The notes below the pieces were generated by a model. It was not told where the DNA came from and ran no database searches. It saw nothing but the letters and a program-made list of their open reading frames with translations. Shown piece after piece: positions 39,275 through 43,487 of a DNA stretch of 43,487 nt. Made by a program: the position numbers and the translations under genes. Positions within the stretch are counted from its first letter, which is position 1. The number at the start of each line of letters is the position of its first letter. Origin of the DNA: Kofleriaceae bacterium (GTDB taxonomy: Bacteria; Myxococcota_A; Polyangia; Haliangiales; Haliangiaceae); the NCBI GenBank assembly GCA_013368795.1, contig JABFXX010000061.1:1-43487 (forward strand), given 5' to 3'.

Positions 39275-42200
39275 GCACCGCCGACAGCACGAAGACCAAC
39301 GCTAACGGTCACCGCGCCAAGGGCACAAACGGCACCGTCATTCGCGGAGCCGGGCCCGAACAGCTCCAGCACCGCGAGCTTCTCGCAGCCCTCCGTGCAT
39401 TCCGGCGCGGCAACTTCGACGTGAAGCTGCGCGACGACATGACCGGTCTCGACGGTCAGATCGCCGAGACGTTCAACGAGCTCGTCTCGATGGTCAAGAC
39501 GATCAAGGACGAGGCGCACGACGTCTGCGGTGCGGTCGGCAAGGAAGGCCAGGCAGCCAAGCGCATGCGCCGCCTCGGCACCGTCGGCGGCTGGGCCGAG
39601 TACATCCAGTCGGTCAACGAGGTGATCGAGGACCTCTCCGGTCACGCGAACGAGATCGCACGCGTCGTCTCCGCCGTCGCCAAGGGCGACCTCGAGCAGA
39701 CGATGGATGTCGAAGACGGCGGCGGCGGTCCGCGGCGCGGCGAGTTCCTCCGCCACGCGCGCATCGTCAACGGCATGGTGGCCCGACTCTCTCAGTTCGG
39801 CTCCGAGGTGACCCGTGTCGCGCTCGAAGTCGGTGGCGAAGGAAAGCTCGGCGCGCAGGCCCGCGTGCAAGGCGTCAGCGGCGTCTGGAAGGACCTCACC
39901 GACTCGGTGAACCTGATGGCGTCGAACCTGACGTCGCAGGTGCGAGAGATCGCCCGCGTGACGACGGCCGTCGCCCAGGGCGACCTGAGCAAGACCGTCA
40001 CCATCGACGTCAAGGGCGAGATCCTCGAGCTCAAGAACACGATGAACACGATGGTCGAGCAGCTCCGCGGCTTCGCCAACGAGGTGACTCGCGTCGCCCG
40101 CGAAGTCGGTACGGAAGGCCGCCTCGGCGGTCAGGCGACGGTGCGCGGCGTGTCGGGCGTCTGGCGCGAGCTGACCGAGTCGGTCAACTCGATGGCGAAC
40201 AACCTGACGTTCCAGGTGCGCAACATCGCCGAGGTGACGAGCGCTGTCGCGTCCGGTGACCTCGGCAAGAAGATCACCGTCGAGGCGAAGGGCGAGATCC
40301 TCGGCCTCAAGAACACGATCAACACGATGGTCGATCAGCTCTCGGCGTTCGCCGCCGAGGTGACGCGCGTCGCCCGTGAAGTCGGTACGGAAGGCGTCCT
40401 CGGCGGTCAGGCCGAGGTCGCGGACGTTTCGGGTGTGTGGCGCGAGCTGACCCAGAACGTCAACTCGATGGCGTCGAACCTGACGTCGCAGGTGCGCAAC
40501 ATCGCCGAGGTGACGACCGCGATCGCTGCCGGCGACCTGAGCAAGAAGATCGGCGTCGACGCGCGTGGCGAGATCCTCGCGCTCAAGAACACGATCAACA
40601 CGACGGTCGACAAGCTCAACCGGTTCTCCGCCGAGGTGACTCGCGTCGCGCGTCTCGTCGGTACGGAAGGCACGCTCGGTGTGACCGCCGACGTGAAGGA
40701 CGTGTCGGGCATCTGGAAGGAGCTGACCGACAACGTCAACCAGATGGCGAAGAACCTGACCAACCAGGTTCGCGACATCGCGGAAGTGACGACGGCCGTC
40801 GCGAACGGCGACCTCGGCCGCAAGATCACCGTCGAAGCGCGCGGTGAGCTCGTCACCCTGAAGAACACGATCAACACGATGGTCGACCAGCTGAACGCGT
40901 TCGCGTCGGAAGTGACGCGCGTCGCTCGCGAGGTCGGTACCGAAGGCGTCCTCGGCGGTCAGGCCCAGGTTCGCGACGTGTCGGGCATCTGGAAGGAGCT
41001 GACGGACAACGTCAACTCGATGGCCGCCAACCTGACGAACCAGGTGCGCAACATCGCCGACGTCGCCCGCGCGGTCGCGACCGGCGACCTGTCGAGGAAG
41101 ATCACGGTCGATGCGCGCGGCGAGGTCCTCGACCTCAAGGCGACGCTCAACACGATGGTCGATCAGCTGAACGCGTTCGCGTCGGAAGTGACGCGCGTCG
41201 CTCGCGAGGTCGGCACCGAGGGCCGCCTCGGCGGTCAGGCGTCGGTCGAAGGCGTCCGCGGTACGTGGAAGGAGCTGACCGACAACGTCAACCAGATGGC
41301 GTCGAACCTGACCAACCAGGTGCGCGACATCGCCGAGGTGACCACCGCCGTCGCGCGTGGTGACCTCACCCGCAAGATCACCGTCGACGCGAAGGGCGAG
41401 ATCCTCGAGCTCAAGAATACCGTCAACATCATGGTCGACCAGCTCTCGAGCTTCGCCGACCAGGTGACGCGCCTCGCGCGAGACGTCGGTATCGAGGGAC
41501 GCCTCGGCGGTCAGGCCGACGTGCGCGGCGTGCTCGGCACGTGGCGCAACCTGACCGACGCCGTGAACTCGATGGCCGCCAACCTCACCGATCAGGTGCG
41601 CAACATCGCGAAGGTCGCGACCGCGATCGCCGCCGGTGACCTGCAGCAGAAGATCGTCGTCGAGGCGCGTGGTGAGATCCTCGAGCTGAAGAACACGATC
41701 AACACGATGGTCGATCAGCTGTCCGCGTTCGCCGACCAGGTGACGCGCGTCGCTCGCGAGGTCGGCACCGAAGGCAAGCTCGGTGGCCAGGCGTCGGTCG
41801 AAGGCGTCCGCGGTACGTGGAAGGAGCTGACCGACAACGTCAACCAGATGGCGTCGAACCTGACCAACCAGGTGCGCGACATCTCGGCCGTCGCGACCGC
41901 GATCGCGCGCGGCGACATGACCCGCAAGATCTCGGTCGAGGTCCGCGGCGAGCTGCTCGACCTCAAGAACGTCATCAACACGATGGTCGACACGCTGTCG
42001 TCGTTCGCCGACGAGGTGACCCGCGTCGCCCGCGACGTCGGTGTCGAAGGCAAGCTCGGTGGTCAGGCGGCCGTCCGCGGCGTCGCCGGCACGTGGAAGG
42101 AGCTGACCGACAACGTCAACCAGATGGCGTCGAACCTCACCAACCAGGTGCGCGACATCGCCGACGTGACGACCGCCGTCGCGAACGGCGACCTCACCCG

Positions 42201-43487
42201 GAAGATCACCGTCGAGGTTCGCGGCGAGCTGCTCCAGCTGAAGAACACCATCAACACGATGGTCGATCAGCTCGGCTCGTTCGCATCGGAAGTCACCCGC
42301 GTCGCGCGCGAGGTCGGTCTCGAGGGTGTCCTCGGTGGCCAGGCCGAAGTCCGCGGCGTCAGCGGTACGTGGCGCGAGCTGACCGACAACGTGAACGTCA
42401 TGGCGCGCAACCTCACCGAGCAGGTGCGCGGCATCGCGACGGTCGTGACCGCGGTCGCCAACGGTGACCTCGACCGCAAGCTGAACCTCGCCGCCCGCGG
42501 TGAGATCGCGACGCTGGTCGACACGATCAACAACATGATCGACACGCTGTCGACGTTCGCCGAGCAGGTCACGGGTGTCGCCCGCGACGTCGGTGTCGAC
42601 GGACGCCTCGGTGGCCAGGCCGACGTGCCGGGCGCCGCCGGTGTGTGGCGCGACCTGACGAACAACGTCAACGAGCTCGCCGGTAACCTGACCAACCAGG
42701 TCCGTGCGATCCGCGACGTCGCGACCGCCGTGACGCAGGGCGACCTGACCCGGTCGATCACCGTCGAAGCGCGCGGCGAGATCGCGCAGCTCAAAGACAC
42801 CGTCAACCAGATGATCCGCACGCTCGCTGAGACCACGAAGGTCAACCAGGAGCAGGACTGGCTGAAGACGAACGTCGCGCGGTTCACCCGCATGCTGCAG
42901 GGCCAGCGCGACCTGTTGACGGTTGCCCGCCAGATCCTCAACGAGCTCGCTCCGCTCGTGAACGCCCACCACGGCGCGTTCTACATGACGGAGTCCGACG
43001 ACGAGGGTCAGGTGCTCCGTCTGTTCGCGTCGTACGCGTACCAGGAGCGCAAGAACATCGCGAACGTGTGGCGGTTCGGCCAGGGCGTCGTCGGTCAGGC
43101 GGCGCTCGAGGCGAAGCGCATCGTGCTGTCGCGCGTGCCCGCCGATTACATCCAGATCACGAGCGCGCTCGGTGAAGCCGCGCCGCACGCGATCGTCGTC
43201 GTCCCGATCCTGTTCGAGGGCGAGGTCAAGGGTGTCATCGAGCTCGCGTCGTTCGAGAGGTTCAGTGGCATCCAGCTCGCGTTCCTCGATCAGATGCTCG
43301 AGTCACTCGGCATCGTGATCGCGACGATCGAAGCGACGATGCGCACCGACGAGTTGCTCCGTCAGTCGCAGAGCCTCACCGAGGAGCTGCGCAGCCAGCA
43401 GGACGAGCTGCAGCAGACGAACGAGGAGCTCGAGGAGAAGGCGCACCAGCTCACCGAGCAGAAGGCAGAGGTCGAGAAGAAGAACCG
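39271..43487 (+). CDS. Giant poly-HAMP/GAF sensor (Nik1-like hybrid kinase), 3' end missing
   Basis: The frame is open from 39271 to the window edge (1405 codons). A short tail and a degenerate HAMP pair are followed by eleven 92-residue HAMP units in perfect register (residues 179-1190), each with [13 protein letters not shown], [20 protein letters not shown] and [19 protein letters not shown] themes. No membrane helix is present, so it is cytoplasmic. A GAF domain (about 1206-1354, [31 protein letters not shown]) and a long coiled coil ([29 protein letters not shown]) precede the edge; kinase and receiver domains are expected beyond it. The architecture matches fungal Nik1-type osmosensing kinases, with about twice as many units. 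It overlaps the upstream hybrid kinase by four bases. Confidence 0.95.
39805..42840 (+). repeat. Eleven 276-bp coding repeats (HAMP units), no indels
   Basis: Unit starts fall at 39805, 40081, 40357, 40633, 40909, 41185, 41461, 41737, 42013, 42289 and 42565, exactly 276 bases apart. Units 6 and 8 share a 96-base identical block (41236-41331 and 41788-41883) and near-identity upstream of it, showing recent exchange within the array. Confidence 0.97.

Follow-up and report, generated by a model that had tools for sequence, protein, structure and literature searches.

Which protein is encoded by the long repeat array at the end of a contig from a Kofleriaceae bacterium, and does the length of that array matter? 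The stretch analysed (the window) is contig JABFXX010000061.1 of assembly GCA_013368795.1, at its full length of 43,487 nucleotides. A reading made from the letters alone, without database searches (the sequence-only reading), had proposed eleven HAMP-type units in a soluble, Nik1-like protein, and a long signalling rod whose length is under selection.

The gene starts with the ATG at 39271, and its frame is open up to the window end; its features are reported in Table 1. The self-match of the protein peaks at lags 92, 184, 276 and 368 (0.64-0.68), the next best lag reaching 0.12 (lags 20-399), and residues 173-1184 correspond to eleven gapless 92-residue units. The eleven units and the exact register, free of indels, that had been read from the letters are therefore recovered; the interval assigned to them then (39805-42840) and the one used here (39787-42822) describe one array in different phase. 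Units share between them 53-82% identity in protein and 64-85% in DNA, and third codon positions vary most, as under purifying selection. The longest exact DNA repeat between units measures 96 bases and is found in units 6 and 8 (window 41236-41331 and 41788-41883), a sign of recent conversion or duplication within an otherwise old array. An assembly artefact was considered and rejected as unlikely, since the close relatives named below carry the same 11 units and no exact repeat exceeds those 96 bases.

Table 1. Features of the poly-HAMP kinase locus, in window coordinates
Feature	Position	Strand	Basis or remark
Hybrid histidine kinase directly upstream, REC-HisKA-HATPase_c-REC	37526..39274	+	Pfam, motifs, junction
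Poly-HAMP hybrid histidine kinase gene	39271..43487	+	First 1405 codons; contig end interrupts gene
Leading single HAMP, residues 33-80	39367..39510	+	AlphaFold helix-connector-helix; aligned with PDB 9trk
Cap unit, residues 81-172, predicted divergent HAMP pair	39511..39786	+	Unit-HMM spacing; AlphaFold model
Eleven 92-residue units, each a predicted concatenated HAMP pair	39787..42822	+	Self-match, Pfam, AlphaFold; solved homologues 9trj/9trk
Last two units, positionally conserved putative C-terminal adaptor pair	42271..42822	+	Reciprocal-best placement across phyla
GAF domain	42907..43320	+	Pfam GAF_2, 2.5e-19
E/Q-rich presumed coiled coil leading into HisKA	43321..43485	+	Sequence by eye

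Pfam models matched the window protein on 11 stretches for HAMP, 12 for HAMP_2 and one for GAF_2, which bears out both the HAMP character of the repeats and the GAF domain of the sequence-only reading. Its soluble protein is also in agreement with the hydropathy profile: over the 1405 residues encoded in the window, the best 19-residue mean is 1.57 and falls inside the GAF region, so that no membrane segment is indicated. Residues from about 1351 to 1405, as judged by eye, presumably form a coiled coil.

The start of contig G000:C193 is identical to the window end over 87 exact bases, and the gene thus continues there. In the frame on this contig (L109), HisKA, HATPase_c and three response-regulator receivers were identified by Pfam, together with motifs of the phospho-His, N, G1 and G2 types. 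The HisKA and receiver domains anticipated downstream were accordingly found on the overlapping contig, and the placement in the Nik1-like, poly-HAMP class stands, with the array N-terminal and the kinase and receivers beyond it. In a genome of the same genus (G007), the entire architecture is contained within one frame (L111), 95% identical over the matched part.

The nature of the 92-residue unit was analyzed by structure prediction on two stretches, the middle of the array being assigned by homology. Six connectors are predicted by AlphaFold in the 276 residues of the last three units, i.e. two per 92, and six also in residues 33-310. The best models have a mean pLDDT of 86.4 and 83.0, respectively, and a pTM of 0.58 and 0.55; among the five models of each job the mean pLDDT goes down to 37.2 and 57.4, and all were computed for a single chain, while the HAMP fold is dimeric. 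The top three Foldseek matches are poly-HAMP structures of Aer2 (3lnr, 4i3m and 4i44; probability 1.00, E 0.009-0.016), no match being found at E <= 0.001. An N-terminal profile compared with the PDB retrieved 9trk (1.5e-141) and 9trj (9.8e-81), both named histidine kinase-Gcn4p, as well as Aer2 3vol (6.8e-7); the alignment to 9trk is gapless across the leading HAMP, the cap unit and the first units. N-terminal arrays homologous to that of the window are therefore already solved, as fragments. Positions 425-516 of the NCBIfam Aer2 model, 92 in all, align with one whole unit, on 11 stretches, at a score far under the curated cut-off (301.6 vs 1200 bits); among the NCBIfam matches listed, no family is above its cut-off.

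Aligned to each other by hhalign, the two halves of the unit fall in HAMP register, with a probability of 4% and a score of 15.0; the highest-scoring of 20 scrambled controls reached 14.9. HAMP_2 had been considered as a profile of the divergent half; it was dropped, as its best stretch, like that of HAMP, sits on the canonical half. Its sequence on its own does not securely identify the divergent half as a HAMP; the predicted fold agrees with one. Each unit is consequently read as a probable HAMP pair from fold and homology rather than from a sequence profile of its second half. In place of the single HAMP-type unit proposed at first, there would be two, as suggested by the two connectors per 92 residues and by the pairing known from CaNik1, whose nine HAMPs are described as four 92-residue pairs plus one single (PMC3848655). 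Together with the leading HAMP and the pair in the cap, the eleven units would give 1 + 2 + 22, or about 25, HAMPs. The leading HAMP, the divergent twelfth unit acting as cap and the missing kinase end had, like the pairing, been absent from the earlier description. The cap is 6 residues off the 92 register, the unit-HMM spacing being 98 instead of 92 at the window's own locus (L009).

Relatives were searched in genome contigs: 260 places encode one, and the best 80 were kept. The ranking followed match score and so favours long arrays over short ones. Eight of the 80 show 91-95% identity in the best segment and are titled Deltaproteobacteria (3), Myxococcales (3), Kofleriaceae (1) and Terriglobia (1, a fragment); the titles of the others include Paenibacillus, Cohnella, Chitinophaga, Acidobacteria, Planctomycetes, Verrucomicrobia, Proteobacteria, Chloroflexi, Gemmatimonadetes and Streptomyces. 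The Terriglobia fragment (L041), an array piece 95% identical in a MAG, possibly reflects binning contamination. In another locus of the window's genus (L016, G001:C185) the alignment jumps from query residue 596 to 766, which could be a real deletion of about two units or a misassembly; its frame is incomplete, and it was not counted.

Units were counted by an HMM built from the eleven units of the window. Complete arrays were obtained for 70 of the 80 loci, from ten phyla; the other ten either lacked a cap by the spacing rule or were too short after the array. Records present in two sets (G007/L030, G003/L032, G009/L033, G011/L034, G004/L061, G204/L098) were counted once. The complete arrays contain 9 (29 loci), 10 (9), 11 (14), 12 (2), 13 (5), 14 (9), 15 (1) or 16 (1) interior units. 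Since 32 of these 70, drawn from the best 80 of 260, have at least 11 and the maximum is 16, eleven units are an ordinary length, and the idea that an array this long is special in a bacterium has to be given up. Comparison of unit number across relatives gives the same 11 in close relatives and 9-16 over the whole set. The family is a known one, and within it the window gene is unexceptional, equal or longer arrays being widespread in bacteria. Arrays of up to about 31 HAMPs were reportedly described by Dunin-Horkawicz and Lupas in 2010. The same genome contains a second poly-HAMP kinase (L110, G000:C205:19573-22317), with 7 interior units, a cap and one receiver.

Within the window's phylum, a HAMP_2 match is present in 31 of 188 sampled genomes, the own genome included. 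The 30 loci taken from this sample (L116-L145) span about 3 kb or less each, so that their arrays are incomplete and were kept out of the 70. Twelve of them (L130-L141, one being the window itself) show spacings of 92, with a step of 97 where the cap is present; spacings are mostly 91 in L116, while L117-L129 and L142-L145 have irregular or no unit matches. L116 (G079:C694:2634-5561), from another genome of the phylum, belongs to a poly-HAMP chemoreceptor: with 30 of 52 candidates scored, its 1649-residue frame shows HAMP_2 matches every 91 residues, at least 11 in number and closely alike, eight of which, with an MCP signalling domain, are in the L116 part itself. HAMP_2 matches occur in several further frames of that genome. 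Among the 20 genomes nearest to the window, the own one included, 15 have a protein match, in some cases outside the array.

Arrays vary almost entirely by whole units. Over the 80 loci, the non-cap spacing is exactly 92 in 784 of 786 cases, the other two being 93 and both from L059; another 75 spacings, between 96 and 102 and never more than one in an array, were taken as the cap, which was recognised from spacing alone. The position of each unit was compared in 69 arrays, L059 being left out for its two spacings of 93. Among the close relatives L029, L030, L031, L033 and L034, every one of the 110 unit comparisons pairs units of equal position as reciprocal-best matches. Across phyla, this positional match holds for the last unit in 1754 of 1978 array pairs (89%) and for the second-last in 1640 (83%), vs 43-154 (2-8%) at the other positions tested, namely the first five counted from the N-terminus and the three that precede the last two; array pairs share species and are not independent events. 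Interior units thus appear, by these sequence comparisons, to turn over, while the C-terminal pair is fixed. Unit number is constant in all five complete close relatives (91-95% identical), in 5/5 Chitinophaga, 5/5 Cohnella and 13 of 14 Paenibacillus, and differs between lineages. On a kinase tree of the 70 complete relatives (a quick LG tree, supports not inspected) it changes 22 times, vs 37.4 times on average, and never fewer than 31, in 200 shuffles. Because changes are fewer than in shuffled data, yet lineages differ, unit number is considered heritable but labile.

A second kinase gene lies directly upstream (Table 1). Its start at 37526 was chosen by us, the open frame beginning at 37217. 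Its stop codon overlaps the poly-HAMP start codon (ATGA), and because of this overlap the two genes are probably translationally coupled. The same upstream kinase is found in the close relatives that include that flank. A same-strand kinase frame within 800 bases is present in 44 of the 62 loci having at least 2.5 kb on both sides, loci of one genus not being independent, and 42 of the 44 have a receiver match; apart from these, the 1072 kb of flanking DNA contain 33 kinase frames, of which 15 have a receiver. No kinase neighbour is found by this rule at 18 of the 62 loci, at least one of which (L034) is a miss of the distance limit. Upstream neighbours occur in the close relatives and in several Paenibacillus and Cohnella; in Chitinophaga and others the neighbour is downstream. 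Elsewhere in the window, adjacent Omp85/POTRA and TamB-like genes (6782-12858) are followed by an MscS-type channel gene (12880-13722).

Several known systems resemble this protein. The fungal group III hybrid kinases (CaNik1, DhNik1, Bos1, TcsC) are likewise soluble, with a C-terminal kinase and receiver, and combine 92-residue HAMP pairs with one single HAMP, four pairs plus one in the CaNik1 description cited above; unlike them, the window protein would have 12 pairs plus one, and it has a GAF domain and three receivers and is bacterial. It is not assigned to the fungal HOG pathway, the genome being prokaryote and the relatives at 91-95% identity being titled as bacterial groups. Aer2, whose poly-HAMP structure (3LNR) is the top Foldseek match and shares the concatenated HAMPs, is a chemoreceptor described as having three HAMPs, then PAS, then two more (PMC3570549). 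Closer in kind, by published description and not by sequence, are AskA and AskB of Myxococcus xanthus (MXAN_0712, MXAN_6735), soluble hybrid kinases in which an extended poly-HAMP array is combined with several receivers. For AskB, 11 partial HTH pairs overlapping its HAMPs are reported (PMC7643160), equal to the number of interior units here. As described in the same paper, AskB is bound by AskC, the product of an adjacent gene, and ambruticin is sensed through this complex. Like the neighbour in the window, AskC is a hybrid kinase; its gene is located downstream of askB in M. xanthus, the window neighbour upstream. By analogy, the window pair may work like AskB-AskC. In an Archangium locus (L081), of the same suborder as Myxococcus, 11 interior units are again present, with a kinase adjacent on the upstream side.

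With the domain order, the register, the fold class of the two modelled stretches, the homology to solved arrays and the frequent kinase neighbour all observed, we read the gene product, with a probability of roughly 80%, as a soluble, presumably dimeric hybrid histidine kinase, in which about 25 HAMPs, followed by GAF, coiled coil, HisKA, HATPase_c and three receivers, form a long allosteric rod that biases the kinase. Each unit would stack two four-helix HAMP levels, for a rod very roughly 55-65 nm long (our estimate, at about 2.4 nm per level), and through its conformational bias the rod would keep the kinase in one state. A bias of this kind has been suggested for CaNik1, in which removal of all HAMPs is reported to activate the downstream pathway (PMC3848655). 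Input would most likely enter along the rod, at the GAF domain or, by the AskB-AskC analogy, via the neighbouring REC-kinase. The rod would change in length almost only by whole di-HAMP steps, because, it is proposed, a step of that size leaves the helical phase unchanged at the end units, which are fixed and drive the kinase. It would be quite improbable, by comparison, that the array serves as a relay from an N-terminal sensor to the kinase. Relaying is the usual role of single HAMPs; here, however, only 32 residues precede the first HAMP, which makes a relay rod doubtful, and no membrane segment is indicated in the part encoded by the window. A DNA-associated scaffold, in which the array itself binds promoter DNA, is unlikely too, if slightly less so. 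It has been proposed for AskA and AskB from partial HTH matches and from binding to mrpC promoter DNA in vitro (PMC7643160), and matches of the same kind occur in the window protein: over its whole length, Pfam SpoIIID scores 44.5 bits (E 1.7e-11, cut-off 27) and HTH_6 22.2 bits (E 1.4e-4, cut-off 28.3). However, the SpoIIID score is a sum over repeats within the HAMP units, neither model being significant on any individual stretch of the window protein; the unrelated helical models ATG17_like and Laminin_II also exceed their Pfam cut-offs inside HAMP units, and NCBIfam SpoIIID is far below its own (31.4 vs 111.5).

The allosteric rod leaves the meaning of its length to be weighed, and here the claim of a length under selection is only partly supported: it agrees with the constant number in close groups and with the 22 changes on the tree, and it is opposed by the differences between lineages, by the 7-unit paralogue and by the one expansion or contraction of the MXAN_6735 poly-HAMP tract reported between two Myxococcus genomes (PMC4603909). 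Unit number may be largely neutral, a reading to which we give a little less than even odds; unequal recombination between similar repeats would change it, and the register would reflect whole-repeat exchange. The tract exactly shared by units 6 and 8, the range of 9-16, the paralogue, the Myxococcus change and interior units that mostly are not positional between phyla all fit this, whereas the tree changes below the shuffle minimum, the 110 positional comparisons among five close relatives and the near absence of small indels argue against it. More tentatively, poly-HAMP kinases might represent the length series of one machine, in which an N-terminal cap is followed by interior di-HAMP steps, interchangeable and variable in number, and then by a C-terminal adaptor of two fixed units, often with a receiver-kinase as partner, and in which a tuned and quantised rod length sets signal gain or reach. 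Variation by whole units with conservation of the last two, next to a receiver-bearing kinase gene, is possibly new, as judged against open PMC papers.

The protein itself is ordinary, yet its family provides natural variants of 7-16 interior units, most of them with the same C-terminal pair, which allow asking how a conformational signal fades or persists over about 17 to 35 HAMPs. A partner mechanism common beyond Myxococcus is suggested by the adjacent receiver-kinase, and the poly-HAMP kinase family is one in which tuned length could be tested against drift by whole units.
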